From: Halorussus caseinilyticus
GTDB taxonomy: Archaea; Halobacteriota; Halobacteria; Halobacteriales; Haladaptataceae
Assembly: GCF_029338395.1 (NCBI RefSeq)
Contig: NZ_CP119809.1
Span: 2,976,001-3,040,000 of the forward strand
Reading direction: 5' to 3'
Length of the DNA: 64,000 nt
Shown here piece after piece: positions 11,284 through 31,874 of the stretch. Positions within the stretch are counted from its first letter, which is position 1. Each line of letters begins with the position of its first letter. The notes under the pieces were generated by a model. That model had not been told where the DNA came from and ran no database searches. It worked only from the letters and a program-made list of their open reading frames with translations. The translations under genes and the position numbers were made by a program.

Positions 11284-11793
11284 TTAGGCCTCAACGACAG
11301 TCCCGTTTCGCGGATTCGGGCCGGGACGGACCTGACCGGCCGTCTGAGCGCGTAATATCACCGTCTCGTTGACGAAGTAATTCACCGTGTAGAATCCGCC
11401 GCCGGACATCTCACTGCCGTCTCGCCGGAGGGTCTTCGAGAATCCCACTTCAAGGTGGACGACGAACCCCGTCGCGGTAACGTTGAGAATTTTCGTTCGG
11501 GCCGGGGTCATCGCCAACTCGGTGGTGTCGTTCGTGAGTTCTTCGTTCCACATGTACGCCTGTTCGTAGTCTTCAACGAACCCGACGACGTTCTCTCGCG
11601 TCAGATTCTCAGGTCGCTCCGGGAGAGACCTCTCGGTCAGACGAGTATCGTTGGACGAGTCGGGGGGCGGCGTCTGTACTGGCGTCGAAGCATTCGTTGT
11701 CTCCCGATTCTGGTCGCTAGCTGGCGCACTGGAGAGACACCCCGCAGTCACCAACAGCAACCCGAAACCGAGTATGGCGAGTCTCGAATGCAT
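11284..11793 (-). CDS. Haloarchaeal lipoprotein, function unknown
   Basis: A 169-residue protein with a short signal and lipobox (GFGLLLVTAGCLSS; Cys at about residue 19). A Thr/Pro/Ser-rich tether (25-55) follows, then a compact domain with FVEDYEQAYMWNE and a later ATGFVVHLEVGFSK...VNYFVNE beta-rich part. Such proteins are anchored to the outer face of the membrane through the lipidated Cys. The start ATG at 11793 is the one that puts the lipobox in place; the longer frame upstream is spurious. Haloarchaea carry many similar lipoproteins of unknown role. Confidence 0.75.
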   Translation of the reverse strand: MHSRLAILGFGLLLVTAGCLSSAPASDQNRETTNASTPVQTPPPDSSNDTRLTERSLPERPENLTRENVVGFVEDYEQAYMWNEELTNDTTELAMTPARTKILNVTATGFVVHLEVGFSKTLRRDGSEMSGGGFYTVNYFVNETVILRAQTAGQVRPGPNPRNGTVVEA

Positions 11794-16892: not shown

Positions 16893-18050
16893 ATGAGCAA
16901 ACACGGGACGGAGATACGCCTCGCGACGCGGGGTTCGGACCTCGCGCTACGGCAGGCGGCCGAGGTCAAGGCCGCCTTGGAGGACCGGCGACTCGCGGTC
17001 GAACTCGTCGAGGTAGAGACGACCGGCGACGAGATTCAGGACGAACTCATCCACCGCCTCGGCAAGACCGGCGCGTTCGTCCGGAGTCTGGACGAGAAGG
17101 TGCTGGACGGCGAGTTGGACGGCGCGATTCACTCGATGAAGGACATGCCCACCGACAACCCCGAGAACTTGGTGGTCGCGGGCATCCCCGAACGCGCCAG
17201 CGCCAACGACGTGCTGGTCACGCCCGACGGCAAGGAGTTGGACGAACTCCCCGAGGGAGCGACGGTCGGCACGTCGAGTCTCCGGCGAAAGGCCCAGTTG
17301 CTGAACTACCGCGACGACCTGAACGTCGAACCCCTCCGGGGGAACGTGGACACCCGCGCCGAGAAGTTGCTCGCGCCCGCGCTTCAGCAGGAACACGAGG
17401 CCCGGACCGAGGCCGAGAAGGAAAAGCAGTCGAACAAGGCCAGAGAGCAGAAGGGCCACACGGTCGATTACGACGCCGAGTTCGACCGGACCGTCGAGGA
17501 GTGGTTCAACGACCTCGCGGAAATCGAGCGCCGGGCGCTGGAGCGGGAGGTCGAAACCGACTACGACGCCATCGTCCTCGCGCAGGCCGGACTCGAACGG
17601 AGCGGACTCGCCCACCACCTCGAATACGTCGAACTCCCGAGTAGCGAGTTCGTCCCCGCGCCCGGTCAGGGTGCGCTCGCGGTGACTGCGCTCGACGGCG
17701 AACTCGCGGGCGACATCAACACGGTGCTGGACCACCCGCGGACGCGGGTCGAGACCACCGTCGAGCGGACGATTCTTGCGGAGTTGGGCGGCGGGTGCGT
17801 CGCGCCCATCGGCGTCCACGGCCTGATTCAGGGCGAGAGCGTCCACGTGGACGTGCAAGTGTTCTCCCAAGACGGCCAAGAGGTCATCGAAGCCAGTCGG
17901 GACGTGCCCGTCGAGAATCACGTCTCGGCCGCGAAAGAGGTCGCCGCCGACCTCGCCGAGAAGGGGGCCGCAGACCTCATCGAGGCCGCGAAAGCCGACA
18001 CCGACGAACCGCGCGAGGCCAAGCGCGAAGGGGAGACGAGCGAGGAATGA
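16893..18050 (+). CDS. hemC: Hydroxymethylbilane synthase (porphobilinogen deaminase)
   Basis: A 385-residue enzyme that polymerises four porphobilinogens to hydroxymethylbilane. Motifs: IRLATRGSDLALRQA at the start, GAIHSMKDMPT, GTSSLRRKAQL, LRGNVDTR, the PAPGQGALAV block, and the dipyrromethane-cofactor cysteine C302 in LGGGCVAPIGVHG. An inserted charged helical segment (about 165-222, Lys/Glu-rich) makes it some 60 residues longer than bacterial HemC. I chose ATG 16893 because it sits just before the conserved N-terminus; an upstream frame adds a basic stretch. It overlaps hemD by 4 nt. Confidence 0.96.
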   Translation: MSKHGTEIRLATRGSDLALRQAAEVKAALEDRRLAVELVEVETTGDEIQDELIHRLGKTGAFVRSLDEKVLDGELDGAIHSMKDMPTDNPENLVVAGIPERASANDVLVTPDGKELDELPEGATVGTSSLRRKAQLLNYRDDLNVEPLRGNVDTRAEKLLAPALQQEHEARTEAEKEKQSNKAREQKGHTVDYDAEFDRTVEEWFNDLAEIERRALEREVETDYDAIVLAQAGLERSGLAHHLEYVELPSSEFVPAPGQGALAVTALDGELAGDINTVLDHPRTRVETTVERTILAELGGGCVAPIGVHGLIQGESVHVDVQVFSQDGQEVIEASRDVPVENHVSAAKEVAADLAEKGAADLIEAAKADTDEPREAKREGETSEE

Positions 18051-21948: not shown

Positions 21949-22070
21949 GACCGCGGGGGCGGCCGACGGAATCGGAACTCCGGTAGGTACTCGAAGTCCG
22001 CTACGTCGCGCCGACGCCGGTATCGGGAGACACGTTCAGCTTTATTGGGACCGAGTAGAGTGAACGAATC

Positions 22071-23042
22071 ATGGTAACGAATTACGAAATTAGCGATTCT
22101 TTCGCCGAAGAATACAGGGATACGGAGGAAAAGCAGTCGTATCCGACCCTCTCTTTCGTGATTCCGGTCAACAGCGACCCGCAGGTCGAACAGACGGTGC
22201 GGTCGATTCTGGACGCCGGGTACGATAACTGCGAGATAATCGTCGCAATCACGCCGACCACTGGGGAGACGATGGCTCTTCTCGAAGACTTACAGGAGGA
22301 GACCGACCTGTTGGAAGTCTACACCCAAGAGGAGTATCGGACGCCCGGCGGGAACCGCAACCGCGGCATCGAGGAAGCGACTGGCGATGTCGTCGTCTTC
22401 GCCGACTCGGACGTGACAATCGGCCCGCTGTTCCCGTGGAAAGTCGCGTACCTCTTCGAGTACTCGTCGGTCGATTATCTGGGGTTCTCGGTCGATTTAG
22501 AGGTCCAAGACGGCGAGAAGAACCTGTTCAACTGGTACGACAAGCACGTCCGATTCCCGGTGGAGTTCTACATGAACTACGCGCTGTTCTGCCCGACGCT
22601 CTGTCTGGCCGTCCGGGACGAACTCGTGGAAGACATCCAGTTCGAACCGTGGATACTCTCGGGCGAGGACATGGTGTTCGGGAAGCTAGCCGCCTACAAG
22701 AACTACGAGTTCGGCTTCTGTGACGACGCGGTGGTGAAACACCCGACGCGGAACACGTTCGAGGACATCGTGGGCGTCGGGGAGAAGACCGGGCGAGGTG
22801 CCTACCAGATGTACGCCCATCTCCCGGTGGACGTGTTCGAGACCGAATCTCGGCTACTGACCGCGAAGGCGTACACTCCCCGGTCGTTCGAGTATCTGAG
22901 CGACATCTGCGACGACTGGGACGAGTTACAGACCTACGAGAAGGTGCTGATTTGGCTCGTCTCCTATATCGAAATCCTCGCGCGGACGTGGGGGTACGCG
23001 CTACAGGCGAAAGACGACTTCAAGCACCGAGTCACGCAGTAG
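22071..23042 (+). CDS. Family 2 glycosyltransferase
   Basis: A 323-residue GT-A enzyme. Rossmann-like start TLSFVIPVNSDPQVEQTVRSILDAGYDNCEIIVAI (27-60), GGNRNRGIEEATGDVVVFADSDVTIGP with the DxD metal site Asp-Ser-Asp, then an acceptor region SGEDMVFGKLAAYKNYEFGFCDDAVVKHP, where the ED pair is the usual catalytic base. The C-terminal amphipathic segment may bind the membrane face. It transfers a sugar from a nucleotide donor to a lipid or glycan acceptor. First gene of a glycan region that continues through the epimerase/nucleotidyltransferase operon on the other strand. Substrate unknown. Confidence 0.85.
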   Translation: MVTNYEISDSFAEEYRDTEEKQSYPTLSFVIPVNSDPQVEQTVRSILDAGYDNCEIIVAITPTTGETMALLEDLQEETDLLEVYTQEEYRTPGGNRNRGIEEATGDVVVFADSDVTIGPLFPWKVAYLFEYSSVDYLGFSVDLEVQDGEKNLFNWYDKHVRFPVEFYMNYALFCPTLCLAVRDELVEDIQFEPWILSGEDMVFGKLAAYKNYEFGFCDDAVVKHPTRNTFEDIVGVGEKTGRGAYQMYAHLPVDVFETESRLLTAKAYTPRSFEYLSDICDDWDELQTYEKVLIWLVSYIEILARTWGYALQAKDDFKHRVTQ

Positions 23043-23048
23043 CGCCTA

Positions 23049-23993
23049 TCACGAGTCGGACTCGCGTCGGGCCGCTTCGACGGTTCGTCGGAGTCCGTCG
23101 CGCCACGAGGTAGTCGGTTTCCAGTCGAGTAGCTCGGCGGCGTGCGACGGGTCGCCAACGAGATGGGACGCGGTTTGCTCGCACTCGGCGGCGTGGTCGT
23201 ACGTCGGCCGAGCGTCCGCGCCGACGAGTTCGTAGATGTCGCCGACCATCTCCCCGGCGGTCATCCCGGTTCCGCCACAGACGTTGAACAGCATCCAGTC
23301 GTCGTCCGCGAGTCGGATGGTCGCGTTCAGCAGGGCATCAACGGCGTCCCCGACGAATACCGGGTCCCGTACGTGGTCCGTACATCGGACGCGAAACGAC
23401 TCGTCTTCGAGTGCCGACGCGATGGCCGACGGTATCAAGCCGCCCGCGGGCGTCTGTCGCGGGCCGTAGACGAGAAACGGGACCGCGACTGCCACGGACA
23501 GGCCCTCATTCTCCGAGTACGACCGAGCGAGACGTTCCCCGGAGCGTTTCGAGGCGTCGTAGAGAGACGAGGCGGCGACCGGGTGTGACTCCGTTTTCGC
23601 GGTTCGCGTGTCGGCGTATCGGTAGGCGGAACTCGTGAACACGACGCCTTCGGCGTCGTGTTCGACTGCCTTCTCGAAGACGTTCTTCGTGCCCGTGACG
23701 TTCGTCTCGACCACCCCGGCGCTCTCGCCTCGGGAAGTCGTCTTGGCCGCGAGGTGATAGACGTACTCCGGTCGGGCCTCCCGAAAGCAGGTGTCGAGGA
23801 ACTGCTCGTCGGTAACGTCGCCGACGTACCGGCGGTGGGGCGACTCCGGGAGCGATTGGGACGGTTCGCTGTGGTGAATCGAGTGGACTTCCGCGCCGAC
23901 GCTAGACAGACGACTGGCGACGTGTCCGCCGAAAAATCCGCCCGCTCCGGTGACGAGGACCGTCCGCGACGAGAGTTCGTCGCCGACGCTCAT
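23049..23993 (-). CDS. NAD-dependent epimerase/dehydratase (extended SDR)
   Basis: A 314-residue extended short-chain dehydrogenase acting on nucleotide sugars. It has a TVLVTGAGGFFGGHVASRL glycine motif, EYVYHLAAKT, the catalytic pair in SSLYDASKRSGERLARSY (Tyr-x3-Lys), and RDPVFVGDAVDALL. It could be the 4-ketoreductase or epimerase acting after the RfbG-like enzyme upstream. A frame without stops continues over the next gene, but the real start is ATG 23993, which overlaps the upstream gene's stop. Last gene of the three-gene rfbF-rfbG-SDR operon. Confidence 0.85.
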   Translation of the reverse strand: MSVGDELSSRTVLVTGAGGFFGGHVASRLSSVGAEVHSIHHSEPSQSLPESPHRRYVGDVTDEQFLDTCFREARPEYVYHLAAKTTSRGESAGVVETNVTGTKNVFEKAVEHDAEGVVFTSSAYRYADTRTAKTESHPVAASSLYDASKRSGERLARSYSENEGLSVAVAVPFLVYGPRQTPAGGLIPSAIASALEDESFRVRCTDHVRDPVFVGDAVDALLNATIRLADDDWMLFNVCGGTGMTAGEMVGDIYELVGADARPTYDHAAECEQTASHLVGDPSHAAELLDWKPTTSWRDGLRRTVEAARRESDS

Positions 23994-24952
23994 TCGAGGC
24001 GGTCTTCGTACCACTGGGCGGTCCGTCCGAGACCGTCTTCGAGACTCGTCTCCGGTCGCCAGTCGAGCGACTGCTCGGCTTTCTCGGCGTCCACTCGCTG
24101 GTGGGTGATGTGGCCCTCGGCGGTCCCTTTCACCACCGGTTCGAGGTCGTCTTTCCCCATCACGTCGCCGACGAGCGAGACGAGTTCGAGGACGCTCGTC
24201 CCGGTTCCCGTCCCGAAGTTGAACGCCTCGCCAGCGACCGACCGGTTCTGCCGTCCGAGCGTCCGGTACGCGCTCACGGCGTCGTCGATGTAGAGATAGT
24301 CGCGCGTCGGCGACCCGTCGGACCGAATCACGGGCGCTTCGTCGTCCAGATACTTCCGTATCGTGCCGGGGACGATTCGACTGAAGTTCAGGTCGCCGGG
24401 ACCGTAGATGTTGGAGCATCGCGTGACCGTGACCGGAACGTCGTAACTCGTGTGGTAGGTCCGGGCGATGCGGTCGGCGGCCATCTTCGAGACGGAGTAG
24501 GGCGCGTCCGGGGTGAGCGCCGTGTCCTCGGTGTAGGGCGGGTTCTCCATCGGCCCGTACGCCTTGTCGCTGGAGGCGACGACCACGCCGTCGGAGACGC
24601 CCTCGGACTCCCGAACCACGTCGAGGACGTTCCACGTCCCCTCGACGTTCGTGGAGAACGCTCGGGTCGGGTCGGCCTTCGCGTCGCCCACCAGCGACTC
24701 CGCGGCGAGGTGGTAAACGAGGTCGAAATCGTAGTCTGCGAACAGCGATTCGATGCTCTCGCGGTCTCGAACGTCGAGAATCTCGAAGTCGAGGCGGTCG
24801 CTCTCGGTGTTCAAGTCGCGTTCGGCGGGCACGGTGTCGATGTCGGTAGCGACCACGGTCGCACCGCGGGATTCGAGGTCCGACGCCAGATGCGCTCCGA
24901 CGAACCCGGCGGCCCCCGTGACCAGCACCGTCTCGTCTCGCCAAAAGCTCAT
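23990..24952 (-). CDS. rfbG: CDP-glucose 4,6-dehydratase-like SDR
   Basis: A 320-residue extended SDR with features seen in RfbG: VLVTGAAGFVGAHLASDL, YHLAAESLVGDAKADPTRAFSTNVEGTWNVLD, SSDKAYG in place of the STDEVYG of dTDP-glucose dehydratases, PYSVSKMAADRIARTY with the Tyr-x3-Lys pair, and SNIYGPGDLNFSRIVPGTI with RDYLYIDDAV. The reaction would be CDP-glucose to CDP-4-keto-6-deoxyglucose. The neighbouring cytidylyltransferase-like gene upstream (4-nt overlap) supports the CDP reading. CDP-sugar pathways are best known from bacterial O-antigens. Exact substrate inferred. Confidence 0.8.
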   Translation of the reverse strand: MSFWRDETVLVTGAAGFVGAHLASDLESRGATVVATDIDTVPAERDLNTESDRLDFEILDVRDRESIESLFADYDFDLVYHLAAESLVGDAKADPTRAFSTNVEGTWNVLDVVRESEGVSDGVVVASSDKAYGPMENPPYTEDTALTPDAPYSVSKMAADRIARTYHTSYDVPVTVTRCSNIYGPGDLNFSRIVPGTIRKYLDDEAPVIRSDGSPTRDYLYIDDAVSAYRTLGRQNRSVAGEAFNFGTGTGTSVLELVSLVGDVMGKDDLEPVVKGTAEGHITHQRVDAEKAEQSLDWRPETSLEDGLGRTAQWYEDRLE

Positions 24953-25755
24953 GGTTCACCTCCGAGCCACGGAAGGTCGTCTTTTTCGGTCGAAATTTTC
25001 CGGACTTTATCCAACCCCTTCCGGGTATCGACACCCTTGAAGAATCCGTCGTGGCGGTAGATGCCGAGTTCGCCTCGGTCCGCGAGTTCGTTGAGCGTGT
25101 CCTGTTCGAGTTCCCGGTCGGCCGACAGGGAGTCGAACACAGTCGTCTCGAAGACGAAGAATCCCACGTTGATGCGCTTGGAGGTGAGCGGTTTCTCCTG
25201 CACCGCCGAAACGCTGTCGCCGTCGGTTTCGAGGACGCCGAACGAACTCGGGGCTTTGACGCCCGTGACGGTTCCGACAGTCCCGTTCTCCTCGTGGTGT
25301 TCGACCAACTGCTCGACGTTCACGTCGGCCAGTCCGTCGCCGTAGGTCAGCAGGAATCGGTCGGCGTCGATGTGGTCTCGGACTTGGAGCAGTCGTTCGG
25401 ACTTGCTGGTTTCGAGACCGGTGTCCACGAGCGTCACGTCCCAGTCGTTCGAACCGACGCCGCGGAACGTAGACGCCGAGGACAGTTCGACGCTCCCGCC
25501 GTCGGTGTACTCCCCCGCCAGTCCGCCGAAGTACTGCTCGAACGCCTCGCTCTTGTAGCCCAGACAGAGCACGAAGTCGTCGAACCCGTGCCGGGAGAAG
25601 TTCTCCATGATGTGATGGACGATTGGGTTCCCGTCGATTTCCAAGAGAGGTTTCGGCGTCTCGTCGGTCAACGGCCGAAGCCTTCGCCCTCTCCCCCCGC
25701 AGAGAAGAACGACAGGTAAGTCCGAATGTTTACGATTGGCCTCCGTTTCCGTCAT
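24949..25755 (-). CDS. rfbF: Glucose-1-phosphate cytidylyltransferase-like nucleotidyltransferase
   Basis: A 268-residue sugar nucleotidyltransferase. LLCGGRGRRLRPLTDETPKPLLEIDGNPIVHHIM is the nucleotide-binding loop with the Lys of PKP. GFDDFVLCLGYKSEAFEQYF closely resembles RfbF, and YGDGLADVNVEQLVEHH carries the metal-binding Asp. The later DTRKGLDKVR fits RfbF ends. It would make CDP-glucose from CTP and glucose-1-phosphate. First gene of the operon, with a GTTAAAATT-type promoter about 30-40 nt upstream. The base specificity (CTP versus dTTP) is inferred from similarity and from the RfbG neighbour. Confidence 0.82.
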   Translation of the reverse strand: MTETEANRKHSDLPVVLLCGGRGRRLRPLTDETPKPLLEIDGNPIVHHIMENFSRHGFDDFVLCLGYKSEAFEQYFGGLAGEYTDGGSVELSSASTFRGVGSNDWDVTLVDTGLETSKSERLLQVRDHIDADRFLLTYGDGLADVNVEQLVEHHEENGTVGTVTGVKAPSSFGVLETDGDSVSAVQEKPLTSKRINVGFFVFETTVFDSLSADRELEQDTLNELADRGELGIYRHDGFFKGVDTRKGLDKVRKISTEKDDLPWLGGEP

Positions 25756-25995
25756 ATTGATGCAATAGATAGCAGGACAATTTTAACTCTTTCGGAGAAT
25801 TGTATAATTTCCAACTCGGATAGCTGTCGTTTCGGAGAGAAGATTAGTCCGTAGGCGGGTCGCGTTCCGGTCGCTCGTCTCGAATCCAGTTCCGACCGCC
25901 GGTCACGAGTTCCGGCGTTCGGGGGCGAGCGAACCGTATTTTTCCCGGTCGTTCGTACCGAAACTACTTATGATACGGGTCGTAGACGAGCAAGT

Positions 25996-26799
25996 GTGAC
26001 TCGGAACGACCTCCCACCAATCGGACTCGGGACTGCCGGAAACGTCGGCCACGAGCAGTGTGCAGAGACGGTTCGGATGGGTCTCGAAGCGGGGTACCGA
26101 CACGTCGATACGGCGCAGATGTACGACAACGAGGCGGCGGTCGGCGACGGACTCGACGCCGCAGATGTCCCCCGGTCGGAGGTGTCCGTCGCGACCAAAG
26201 TCCACCCCGAAAATCTGGGGTACGAGGCGGTTCACCGCTCGGCGGCCGAGAGCGCGGACCGCCTCGGCGTCGATACCATCGACGTGTTGTACGTCCACTG
26301 GCCCGCGGGTGCCTACCACCCCGAGGAGACGCTCCGGGCGTTCGACGAGTTGTTCGAGGAGGGCGCGATTGGCGGGGTCGGTCTCTGCAACTTCACCGCT
26401 CCGTTGCTCCGGGAGGCGTTGGACCGACTCGACGCGCCGGTCGTCGCCCACCAAGTCGAGTGCCACCCGCTCCTGCCCCAAGACCGCCTCTACGCGTTCT
26501 CCCGGAAGTACGACCACGCGCTCGTCGCGTACGCTCCGCTCGCCCAGACGATGATTTTCGACCACCCGGCCGTCGAGTCGATTGCGGCCGAACGCGACCT
26601 GACGCCAGCGCAGGTGTGTCTGGCGTGGCTTCACGGCCGAGAAGGAGTCGTCCCGATTCCGAAATCGACCGGACGCGACCACCTCGAAGAGAACTTCGCG
26701 TCCCTCGATGTCGAGTTGCCGCCGAGCGCGCGCCAGCGACTGGACGGCATCGAGGCGAGAGCGCGGGTCATCGACCCGCATTACGCGCCGTGGAAGTGA
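25996..26799 (+). CDS. Aldo/keto reductase
   Basis: A 267-residue NAD(P)H-dependent reductase with the AKR tetrad: Asp and Tyr in HVDTAQMYDNEAAVGDGL, Lys in SVATKVHPENLG and His in LYVHWPAG. The QVECHPLLPQDRLYAFSRKY and IPKSTGRDHLEEN segments shape the cofactor pocket. The barrel is slightly short. It may reduce a keto-sugar or another aldehyde; the position between the CDP-sugar operon and FkbM gene suggests, but does not prove, a sugar role. GTG 25996 is preceded by a CTTATGATA box about 27 nt upstream. Confidence 0.88.
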   Translation: MTRNDLPPIGLGTAGNVGHEQCAETVRMGLEAGYRHVDTAQMYDNEAAVGDGLDAADVPRSEVSVATKVHPENLGYEAVHRSAAESADRLGVDTIDVLYVHWPAGAYHPEETLRAFDELFEEGAIGGVGLCNFTAPLLREALDRLDAPVVAHQVECHPLLPQDRLYAFSRKYDHALVAYAPLAQTMIFDHPAVESIAAERDLTPAQVCLAWLHGREGVVPIPKSTGRDHLEENFASLDVELPPSARQRLDGIEARARVIDPHYAPWK

Positions 26800-26800
26800 G

Positions 26801-27529
26801 TCACTTCGCGGCGACGACGAACTTCTCGTCTGACTGCTCGGACCCCATCTCGTTCCGGCGTCGGTGAAGCGTCGATACCTCGAAACCGCACTCCGAGAGC
26901 GTCTCGCAGATGCTGTCGGCGGTTTCGTCGCCGAAAATCTTCCCCTCGTGGAGTTCCAGATAGACGCGGCGACACTCGTCGTCGCGGAGGGTCGCTTCGA
27001 GACCCTCGATTACGTACCCCTCCGCGCCCTCAACGTCGATTTTGAGTACGCTCGGCGTCCCGTCGAGGTACCTCGAAATCATCTCGTCGCCGTCGAGCAT
27101 CGGCACCGTGACCTCCCCCTCGCCGAGCGACGCCATGTCGTCGATTCCGTCTAGCGTGTCGGCGTCCATCTGGGTCACTCGCTCGCCGTCGCCCATCGCA
27201 AACGGGAGCGTCTCCCAGTCGTCGCAGTTCAGTTCGAGGTTCTTCCGGGCCTTCACGACGTTCTGTTGTATCGGTTCGACGGCCACGGCGCTCGCGCCGA
27301 CGGTTCCGGCGACGGCGGCGTAGATACCCACGTTCGCTCCGACATCGAGAAACGAATCGTCCGCGGAGACGTGAGACACGATGTCCTCCAGAACTGGGGC
27401 CTCGGTGCTGTGCATGTAGCCGATAATCCGGAGTTCGTCCAGCGAAGAGATGTGATACGTGACGGACTCCCCACCGACCTCGAAACTGTACTCGGCTTCG
27501 TCCGACGCCACGAAACGTTCAAATCCCAT
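26801..27529 (-). CDS. FkbM-family SAM-dependent methyltransferase
   Basis: A 242-residue methyltransferase. Motif I is SFLDVGANVGIYAAVAG, followed by AVEPIQQNVVKARKNLELN, and the FkbM hallmark PSVLKIDVEGAEGYVIEGLEATL with Asp-x-Glu-Gly near the sugar/SAM site. Such enzymes O-methylate sugars or small natural products. In the glycan region it probably methylates a sugar residue of the surface polymer or S-layer glycan. I chose ATG 27529 (MGFERFVAS); an upstream frame start is less supported. It is convergent with the aldo-keto reductase with a 1-nt gap. Confidence 0.88.
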   Translation of the reverse strand: MGFERFVASDEAEYSFEVGGESVTYHISSLDELRIIGYMHSTEAPVLEDIVSHVSADDSFLDVGANVGIYAAVAGTVGASAVAVEPIQQNVVKARKNLELNCDDWETLPFAMGDGERVTQMDADTLDGIDDMASLGEGEVTVPMLDGDEMISRYLDGTPSVLKIDVEGAEGYVIEGLEATLRDDECRRVYLELHEGKIFGDETADSICETLSECGFEVSTLHRRRNEMGSEQSDEKFVVAAK

Positions 27530-27584
27530 ACTCGGCGTAAACAAGTGGGTACATTAAAAACCACTGCGTGTCGGTGAGGCGACA

Positions 27585-28847
27585 CTACTCGGGGAAGTAG
27601 CCGAGTTCTCGGAGTCGTTCGGCGACTGCGCCGTCAACGTCTCTCCCGTCGGGTCGGGAAGTCTTCTCTCTCCCTTCGAATCGGGCGTGAATCTCGGCCG
27701 GGTCGAGTCGCTTCTCCGTCCACGCGTTCTGGGCGTCACGAACCGTGACGAGAGCGCCCCGGTTTCTCGACGCGACTCGTTTTTCGACCCCTCGCTCGCC
27801 GTCCGTGTAGATTGCGCGCCACGGGCCGATGTAGTCGCTCACGTCCGCGTCGAACTGGTCTCTGTCCTCCTCGCGCAACCGATACGTCGAACTGAACACC
27901 GGGCCGTCCGTGACGAAGGAACTGCTGTCGGCGGTGCCGTCTACGGTCTCCGCGACGACGCGGGGGAAGTCGGTCAGCGAGACGACTCGCTCTACGACTT
28001 CCGATTCGGTCTGGCCCGGATAGCGAACGACGAGGGGAACGTGGGTCAGACACTCGTGGATGCCCCAGTTGTGGTCGGCGAGTCGAACCGCGGGTTCGAC
28101 TCGACTCCGCTCGCCGAACCCTTCGCCGTGGTCGCTCGTGACGACGACCAGCGTGTCGTCCAGCGCGTTTCGGCGTTTCAGCGTCTCGACTATCTCCCGG
28201 ACCGCGTGGTCGCTCTGGCGTATGCCGCCGTCGTAGAACGCTTCGAGCGTGTCGAGTTCGCCCCACGCGCGTCCCCCGGCGTACTGCGGAGCGATTGGGT
28301 CGCCGTAGACTTCGTTTGCGACGTGGAGCATCGTCGGCGTCGTCCACCGGTCGTACTCGTCTTCGGGCGTGTACGGCCAGTGGGAGTCCATCAGGTTCAG
28401 ACAAGCGGCCCACGGACCGTCCCGGTCTGCCTGCCAGTCGAGGAACGCTCTGGCGTATCGCTGTGCGGGTTGTCGCGGACCCTCGTCGTCGTCGGGTCTC
28501 TCGACCGTCTCGAAACACGCCGAGAGGTTCGAGGACTTGGAGACGATGAGGTTCGGCGTGAACAGACCGGTCGAGTAGCCGTCTCCCTGTAGGGTCTTCC
28601 ACACCGTCCGGTCTACGTCGATGTTCGCGTCGATTTCGAGCGCCTGATGTTCCTCGATGGTCTCTCCCGTGAACAGACTGACGTGGCTCGTGATGCTGTG
28701 GATGCTCGGCGAACGCGCCTGCGTGTACGTCGTCGCGTCCTCGGCGAACGTTTCGAGAAACGGGGTCGTCTCGTTGTCGTGTCCGTACAAACTCACGTTC
28801 TCGGCTCTGGTGCTGTCGAGAACGACCAGAAGGACGTTGGGGTTCAT
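27585..28847 (-). CDS. Sulfatase-like enzyme (alkaline phosphatase superfamily)
   Basis: A 420-residue enzyme of the sulfatase fold: NVLLVVLDSTRAENVSLYGHDNETTPFL (metal-binding Asp), catalytic segment SIHSITSHVSLFTGE, DGGIRQSDHAV and VVVTSDHGEGFGE (second metal site). The formylglycine Cys of true sulfatases is replaced by Ser, so phosphotransferase or phosphodiesterase-like activity is as plausible. There is no signal peptide, so it acts in the cytoplasm or at the inner membrane face. I chose ATG 28847 because the TATATTATA box at 28886-28894 would start transcription just inside the ATG at 28874. The C-terminus ends ...RLRELGYFPE. Confidence 0.82.
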   Translation of the reverse strand: MNPNVLLVVLDSTRAENVSLYGHDNETTPFLETFAEDATTYTQARSPSIHSITSHVSLFTGETIEEHQALEIDANIDVDRTVWKTLQGDGYSTGLFTPNLIVSKSSNLSACFETVERPDDDEGPRQPAQRYARAFLDWQADRDGPWAACLNLMDSHWPYTPEDEYDRWTTPTMLHVANEVYGDPIAPQYAGGRAWGELDTLEAFYDGGIRQSDHAVREIVETLKRRNALDDTLVVVTSDHGEGFGERSRVEPAVRLADHNWGIHECLTHVPLVVRYPGQTESEVVERVVSLTDFPRVVAETVDGTADSSSFVTDGPVFSSTYRLREEDRDQFDADVSDYIGPWRAIYTDGERGVEKRVASRNRGALVTVRDAQNAWTEKRLDPAEIHARFEGREKTSRPDGRDVDGAVAERLRELGYFPE

Positions 28848-29075
28848 CGTGCGTCTCTCTGCCGAGTCCGGCATTAATGTTTTTCCCCTATAATATATGA
28901 ATCGGAAGTCTCTACTGTGAGTGAATCGGCGCGGCCGTAGTTAAGTCTCCAAGCCGATTCGCCGACGTTCGGTGAGTTTCGCCGGTTGGTCCCGAGTCAG
29001 TCATTTCTAATTTTAGTTCTAGCCACCGTTAAGTATTTATTCGAGCTAAGAAAGATGTGACTACTACGACGAACT

Positions 29076-29745: not shown

Positions 29746-30216
29746 ATGAGTTCGAAAGAAAGCCCGGACTGGAAGTTCGACTTCACGAACGACGAGCTTG
29801 AAGACAAGACGATGAGCAATGCGGATTTCTCGAACACGTCTCTGGAATCCGAAGAAGAGACCACCCTGAACGATTCGCCGTTCTCGAACACCTCCCTGAA
29901 GTCCGACGACCCGGACACGACCCGCGCCGCCACCGACTGGGCGAAGACGGGTTCGGACGACGAGAAGACCGTGCGCGCCGCGACCGCCGACTGGTCGAAG
30001 ACCGACGACGACCCTGAGACGGTTCGCGCCGCGACCGCCGACTGGTCGAAGGCCGACGACCCTGAGACGGTTCGCGCCGCGACCGCCGACTGGTCGAAGG
30101 CCGACGACGACCCTGAGACGGTTCGCGCCGCGACCGCCGACTGGTCGAAGACCGACGACGAACCCGAGACCGTGCGCGCCGCGACCGCCGACTGGTCGAA
30201 GGCCGACGACGCCTAG
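29746..30216 (+). CDS. Acidic tandem-repeat protein, function unknown
   Basis: A 156-residue acidic protein. The N-terminal part holds two FSNTSL(E/K)S motifs (about 28-34 and 46-52). From residue 54 onward there are about six units of 16-17 residues with core DPETVRAATADWSK; the first unit (RAATDWAK) is diverged and the last ends ADDA. The DNA units are nearly identical, so copy number could change by slippage or recombination. There are no Cys, signal peptide or membrane segment. An ACTTTTTTATAT promoter box lies at 29711-29722. I recognise no family; the neighbours belong to glycan synthesis and a nucleotidyltransferase. Confidence 0.75.
   Translation: MSSKESPDWKFDFTNDELEDKTMSNADFSNTSLESEEETTLNDSPFSNTSLKSDDPDTTRAATDWAKTGSDDEKTVRAATADWSKTDDDPETVRAATADWSKADDPETVRAATADWSKADDDPETVRAATADWSKTDDEPETVRAATADWSKADDA
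29902..30210 (+). repeat. In-frame tandem repeat array (about 48-51 nt units)
   Basis: About six units inside the acidic repeat protein. Three consecutive units share the core GACGGTTCGCGCCGCGACCG without change. The array ends just before the stop. Confidence 0.8.
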
Positions 30217-30390: not shown

Positions 30391-31422
30391 TTACGCGCTG
30401 ATTTTCTCTTTGTTGTAGATGTAGAGACCTTGGAGGTACCCCAGCGTGTACGCACACAGTTGCAGGAACCGGAACGCCCACCGGCGCAACGACACTCCTT
30501 CAGACGAGTTCAGTTCCCCGAGCGTCGGCCGCTTCGAGAGCAGTTGCCGCCACTTCACCCACGGAGTGTAGTGGTTCCGATACGCCTCCTCCGAGTACTC
30601 CTTGACGTAGTGGTCGCCCGTCCCGAAGTACTGGAATCGCTTCAGATTGTCCGCGAGCGTCACCGGATAGCGATGGCGGACCCGGATGGTGCGGTCCATC
30701 ACGAAACCGGCACCGAGGTCGGTGATTCGCTTGCGCAACAGGTTGTCTTCGGCCACGTCCGCGTAGCGCGATTCGGTGTTGAAACCGCCGATGCTCTCGT
30801 ACACGTCCTTCCGGTAGACGAGATTCCGACTGTCGGCCTGCCCCGCCCGAAATCGGGACTTGTCCCGATTGCTCTCGTATCTGGTGTACCAGTTCCTGTC
30901 GGGCGGGTAGTCCAAGTAGTAGGCACCCTGTATCGCGCCCGGAAACCAGTGTTTCTTGATGGACCGATGTATGGATTCGACCCAGTTGTCCTCGGCAACG
31001 CAGTCGGAGTCGATACTGACGATGTACTCGTTTTCCGCCGCCTCGATGCCCGCGTCCCGTTTCCCGGTTATCGTCACCGCGTCCGTCGTGAGGACGCGCA
31101 GTGGGTCCCAGTCCATCGACCGGAGTCGCCGCACCGTCTCGCGGTCGTCGGCCGGACAGCAGACGAGACATTCGAACTCGATGTGGTCCTCGGGATACCG
31201 CCGATAGAACCGTTCGACCGACTCCCGAATGGAATCGACCATCTCGGCGGTCTGGTCGGGGCGCTTGTACGTCGAGTTCACCACGGACAGCGAGACCGGT
31301 CGCTCGTACTCGGCGACCATCGACCGAACGTCGGCGAACGCCTCGGAGTGGAAACTCCACGTGTAAATCGCGGGCAGGTCGCGCACGTCGTCGGCCAACG
31401 GTTCCGACGGGATGGTCGTCAC
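30391..31422 (-). CDS. Family 2 glycosyltransferase (probably 3' part of a split fusion)
   Basis: A 343-residue GT-A domain: PVSLSVVNSTYKRPDQTAEMVDSIRE, GKRDAGIEAAENEYIVSIDSDCVAEDNW (DxD site), then RADVAEDNLLRKRI-like acceptor residues (YADVAEDNLLRKRITDLGAGF). The annotated start is GTG 31422, overlapping the upstream gene, but the frame stays open and protein-like upstream of it (RLSSEEVVARFADGDPIRPPVED) with no start codon. The first residues VTTIPSEPLADDVRDLPAI look like the end of a DUF2064-type domain. The two genes may therefore be one disrupted by a frameshift at 31489-31510. It acts in surface glycan assembly by context. Confidence 0.8.
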   Translation of the reverse strand: MTTIPSEPLADDVRDLPAIYTWSFHSEAFADVRSMVAEYERPVSLSVVNSTYKRPDQTAEMVDSIRESVERFYRRYPEDHIEFECLVCCPADDRETVRRLRSMDWDPLRVLTTDAVTITGKRDAGIEAAENEYIVSIDSDCVAEDNWVESIHRSIKKHWFPGAIQGAYYLDYPPDRNWYTRYESNRDKSRFRAGQADSRNLVYRKDVYESIGGFNTESRYADVAEDNLLRKRITDLGAGFVMDRTIRVRHRYPVTLADNLKRFQYFGTGDHYVKEYSEEAYRNHYTPWVKWRQLLSKRPTLGELNSSEGVSLRRWAFRFLQLCAYTLGYLQGLYIYNKEKISA

Positions 31423-31874
31423 GTCCTCAACGGGCGGCCGTATCGGGTCGCCGTCGGCGAATCGAGCGACGACTTCCTCCGACGAGAGGCGTCCGGGGTT
31501 CCCCGGACGCCGAGAAGAGCGGGCGCGTCCCGCGGCGAGAAACTCGAGATTGCGGTCACTCGGTCGAGTTGCTCGAAGACCTGCTGGACTTTCCGGCTAT
31601 CGACCAGCGACCGACCGGAAATCAAGACGACATCCTCCGCGACATCGAGTACCTCGCGGGCCGATTCGAGGACCGCCGCGTCGTCGTACTCGGCGGCGTC
31701 AAGCGCCGACCCCTCGTCGGCGAAGTGGACGAACAGGTCGTACGGTTCGTCGCCGTGTTCGTCCACGAGACCCGATAGCATCCGACGATAGAGTTCGTCG
31801 GCCCGAGACACCCCGAGTCGGTCTTCGAGGGACGAACTGGGTTCCGAACCGAGAATTACGACTGCTCTATCCAT
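31419..31874 (-). CDS. DUF2064-like transferase domain, C-terminus out of frame
   Basis: A 151-codon frame. Residues 1-120 resemble the DUF2064/TIGR04282 GT-A fold: MDRAVVILGSEPSSS, ADELYRRMLSGLVDE, YDLFVHFADEG, VVLISGRSLVDSRKVQQVFEQLDRVTAIS and DAPALLGVR, corresponding to the VVLIGSDSPDL...GGYYLIGLR pattern of that family, although the Asp and Gly residues of the active site are degraded. The last 25 residues turn basic (ASRRRKSSLDSPTATRY), unlike haloarchaeal protein, right after a 22-nt palindrome. I read this as the 5' half of a DUF2064-GT2 fusion that left its frame. The start chosen is ATG 31874. Confidence 0.6.
   Translation of the reverse strand: MDRAVVILGSEPSSSLEDRLGVSRADELYRRMLSGLVDEHGDEPYDLFVHFADEGSALDAAEYDDAAVLESAREVLDVAEDVVLISGRSLVDSRKVQQVFEQLDRVTAISSFSPRDAPALLGVRGTPDASRRRKSSLDSPTATRYGRPLRT
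31489..31510. repeat. 22-nt palindrome at the suspected frameshift
   Basis: GCGTCCGGGG (31489-31498), loop TT, exact complement 31501-31510. It lies inside the glycan transferase coding region at the point where coding character changes frame on the minus strand; its G and C runs of four are typical places for a one-base indel. Confidence 0.7.

Follow-up and report, generated by a model that had tools for sequence, protein, structure and literature searches.

A gene break at a GC-rich hairpin in a haloarchaeal glycosyltransferase locus is most likely an assembly indel error

Indel errors left in assemblies are known to fragment genes (PMC8812927, PMC12007338), and when only long reads are assembled, wrong homopolymer lengths are the most frequent error to persist (PMC8812927). 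We analysed a gene that appears split in two on the chromosome of a haloarchaeon (contig C1 of genome G000, a genome of 4.39 Mb in 5 contigs). The locus resembles these published cases in that the breaks in this assembly are of the one-base type, lie in G/C-rich runs and affect recognisable as well as essential genes. It differs from them in its setting, a perfect hairpin rather than a long homopolymer. We conclude that the split is probably a sequencing or assembly error in one intact gene.

The gene lies in a 64-kb stretch of DNA, hereafter the window, to which positions refer unless another stretch is named. On its minus strand, an orphan open frame of 151 aa (ORF1, 31874–31419) runs from an ATG at 31874 to a TGA at 31419–31421. 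A GT2-family glycosyltransferase of 343 aa, counted from a GTG, occupies 30391–31422 on the same strand and was recognised by its match to PF00535 and its 40% identity to a protein of another haloarchaeal family, L031. The open GT2 frame extends from 31596 to 30391; the earliest ATG, GTG or TTG within it is the GTG at 31422, so that the first possible GT2 start codon overlaps the ORF1 stop codon in a GTGA (31419–31422, minus strand). A surface-polysaccharide cluster is found nearby (22059–28874), with a GT2, an epimerase, a nucleotidyltransferase, an FkbM methyltransferase and a sulfatase. At 29746–30216, on the plus strand, the window also encodes an acidic 156-aa protein, largely made of repeats of ~16 residues (TVRAATADWSKADD...) and with no Pfam match.

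ORF1 is coding-like down to about 31505; beyond this point a basic, non-coding-like tail continues until the TGA, in agreement with the earlier note, according to which the protein turns basic after LLGVR. The tract 31423–31487 (minus strand, SSEEVVARFADGDPIRPPVED) overlaps this tail and is coding in the GT2 frame. The tract RLSSEEVVARFADGDPIRPPVED was confirmed in the GT2 frame, with no start codon. We trained a model of codon usage on 10,281 codons from 20 genes of the window. For 31487–31423 it assigned -109 bits to the GT2 frame; the ORF1 frame received -129 and the remaining frame -137. The GT2 frame therefore outscores the ORF1 frame by 20 bits across 21 codons, a margin of wrong over true frame reached in just 0.3% of windows inside genuine genes. 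A frame-break scan of the assembly, detailed below, flagged the same tract (dB 18.8). The start-less coding tract that had been reported at this place is borne out by the open frame and by codon usage.

According to the codon-usage model, the best switch point between the two frames is 31487–31490, with positions 31505–31484 within 5 bits, placing the likeliest switch inside a hairpin or at its 3' edge. This hairpin is the inverted repeat GGCGTCCGGGG-AA-CCCCGGACGCC (31488–31511, minus-strand reading), which has perfect 11-nt arms and a 2-nt loop (AA), and is GC-rich with G4/C4 runs. The earlier note had described a palindrome at 31489–31510: the frame does switch there, but the extent needs correction, as the true inverted repeat is 24 nt long and encloses it. 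Positions 31488–31511 are the sole match to this inverted-repeat pattern in the window; with as many as three mismatches allowed, 0.02 matches would be expected. Hairpins with arms of at least 11 nt and a loop of at most 6 make up 0.5% of the sampled bases, so a switch would coincide with one in about 1% of cases, an estimate made post hoc.

The GT2 frame takes over at the hairpin, 81 nt ahead of its first possible start codon. Placing the switch at the GTG instead costs at least 13 bits (13.5 or more) relative to a switch at the hairpin. Because the hairpin switch fits codon usage better, one fused gene, start-less in its downstream frame, is favoured, and the best and simplest reading is that this gene shifts frame through the hairpin with a net change of minus one base. 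The one-base-type indel previously suspected is supported to this extent, as a net minus one at the hairpin within one open reading unit.

These data bear on whether the locus encodes two separate proteins, with ORF1 ending at its TGA and the GT2 beginning at the overlapping GTG by termination-reinitiation. Such a GTGA overlap is a usual geometry of translational coupling, and the stand-alone L031 starts close to the position of the GTG at 31422. However, ORF1 does not look coding in its last 21 codons and the GT2 frame does so above the GTG (20 bits), which is unexpected for two long-established genes, and the ORF1 tail is basic and modelled with very low confidence. A genuine overlap elsewhere in the genome (L104, shikimate kinase/chorismate mutase) received a similar score, yet the downstream frame there has a start codon. 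We consider two separate proteins improbable, with a slim chance of being correct.

The minus-one direction and the stable hairpin would in principle also fit programmed ribosomal frameshifting that joins the two halves, or phase variation that toggles them, and one archaeal minus-one case, an alpha-fucosidase, is established (PMC8037382). Yet there is no perfect X-XXY-YYZ heptamer anywhere in the ORF1 frame, the frame change lies within the hairpin or past it and not upstream, and the local RNA fold is unexceptional (z -0.85). No simple repeat tract extends beyond G4/C4, and no homologues show conservation of the two-frame arrangement. Programmed frameshifting or phase variation is accordingly rated exceedingly unlikely, and the recoding raised in the earlier note, for which we found neither a slippery heptamer nor a switch upstream of the hairpin, was not upheld. 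It is similarly very unlikely that the split or recoding is functional, the hairpin deciding between a fused and a separate glycosyltransferase.

The downstream frame scored 37.1 bits against PF00535, above the Pfam cut-off of 23.3, and is clearly a GT2 glycosyltransferase, with an activity predicted from its sequence. The earlier note had called for a comparison with haloarchaeal homologues: ORF1 proved to have no credible homologue, and the close GT2 homologue is stand-alone. That homologue, L031, was the only close one found among more than 500 haloarchaeal genomes; it is full-length, 40% identical over ~300 aa, and begins ~30 residues ahead of the glycosyltransferase core with no ORF1-like part upstream. 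The remaining GT2 homologues share 23–34% identity. Unlike L031, the GT2 frame in the window extends upstream into the orphan domain. We infer from the open frame and codon usage an ancestral ORF1–GT2 fusion, which the homologues neither support nor contradict.

ORF1 had been taken for a DUF2064-like protein. Searches of Pfam and NCBIfam found no match, even at an E-value of 10, for ORF1 alone or joined to the C-terminal tract. We built our own profile from 30 haloarchaeal DUF2064 proteins, and it scored ORF1 at 1.9–3.6 bits, a level equalled by shuffled sequences; the C-terminal tract added nothing. The profile alignment stops short of the junction, and the likeness of the GT2 frame to the C-terminal half of DUF2064 is by eye only. 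Membership of ORF1 in DUF2064 is not supported by Pfam, NCBIfam, our HMM or hhalign, all without significance. By eye and in a low-confidence model, ORF1 resembles DUF2064 (PF09837) in a faint motif (ELYRRML...) and in beta-alpha-beta order. The two differ in that ORF1 matches no family and its profile score falls within the shuffle range; the label is a likeness only and unproved. Searches for ORF1 homologues in more than 500 haloarchaeal genomes, in a scan of genome contigs and in plasmids returned matches at noise level, and the sequence around the single same-genus match (L004) contains no related gene. A single-sequence structure model of ORF1 gave a low-confidence alpha/beta arrangement, with a tail pLDDT of 29–39, and neither this model nor the one made in the same way for the GT2 frame was good enough for a fold search.

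Besides the window, the frame-break scan took in eighty 20-kb stretches of the same contig, for a total of 1.66 Mb. It found the break in the window and six more start-less breaks in recognisable genes. One lies in ffh/SRP54 (plus strand, L111, G000:C1:2950001-2970000, about 11590–11760), where the frame changes twice within ~40 nt, at C6 and G4 runs. Just one locus in the genome encodes the signal-peptide-binding domain of SRP54, and the in-frame match there covers only positions 1–58 of 91. Another is in dapB (plus strand, L118, G000:C1:760001-780000, about 16798), where the break falls at a G-run within a GC hairpin, as at the window site. This gene too occurs once in the genome, divided between two frames (positions 1–73 and 51–120), and is unbroken in a single frame in each of the 22 relatives with a match. 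The other four, all on the minus strand, affect a glycosyltransferase (L145, 3473), a halophile protein (L146, 6700), a protein beginning MRVLFVPELYRP (L153, 15937) and an aldehyde dehydrogenase (L169, 11881), the names of the first, second and fourth being given by eye from the translation. Inverted-repeat arms of at least 7 nt occur at three of the seven breaks, against 15% of random windows, numbers too small to conclude from. Flags at L101, L106, L097 and window position 18047 were discarded as antisense shadows of real genes, and those at L104 and L152 as genuine gene starts. The true number of breaks in the assembly is probably higher than the count, because, in a trial on artificial one-base deletions, a more stringent form of the scan picked up about half.

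Two genomes of the same genus served as controls, with 400 kb scanned in each. G013 had no clear breaks. G009 had at least two, in a GNAT-like acetyltransferase (L187, 4927, plus strand) and in a SecD-like protein (L189, 8401, minus strand), and its assembly may also carry errors. Since G009 shows such breaks too, their rate alone is no proof of error and cannot separate error from mutation; essential genes can. Indispensable genes (ffh and dapB) are broken in the assembly studied here, and Haloferax volcanii does not remain viable when SRP54 is deleted (PMC2905702). An organism without a working SRP54 being implausible, the assembly must contain indel errors. The window site has the same character, and is therefore most likely an error; we infer that its break belongs to the same class as the others. 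Among the options first listed for the split, a sequencing error is the one favoured by these breaks in essential, single-locus genes. Under the mechanism that we propose, the chromosome would carry one intact gene of ~490 codons, encoding an orphan N-terminal alpha/beta domain followed by a GT2 glycosyltransferase. The assembled sequence would have lost a net one base at the GC-rich hairpin with its G4/C4 runs, and this loss would artificially divide the gene into two overlapping ORFs.

The main rival to an assembly error is a genuine recent frameshift at the hairpin, by polymerase slippage or by template-switch correction of a quasipalindrome, that left a pseudogene or two fragments. In favour of such a mutation, the break coincides exactly with an inverted repeat whose 11-nt arms are perfect, and imperfect inverted repeats are mutation hotspots that template switching perfects (PMC7202029). 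Losing the gene would be tolerated, as it is not conserved among members of the genus. The natural decay and variation of surface-glycosylation genes count against an error, as do the length of only 4 of the G and C runs at the window break and the lack of a homologue confirming the intact fusion. Against a mutation stand the six other breaks in the sampled assembly, two of them in genes not plausibly lost, and the absence of codon decay away from the break in either frame. On balance, we regard a genuine frameshift as unlikely, with a small but real chance.

Explained as an error, the split gene is most likely ordinary. The assembly contains frame-breaking indels, so any split gene, pseudogene or sign of recoding found elsewhere in this genome should be treated with doubt until the reads have been consulted. 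A real break would amount to the loss, associated with a hairpin, of a surface-glycosylation gene specific to the strain.
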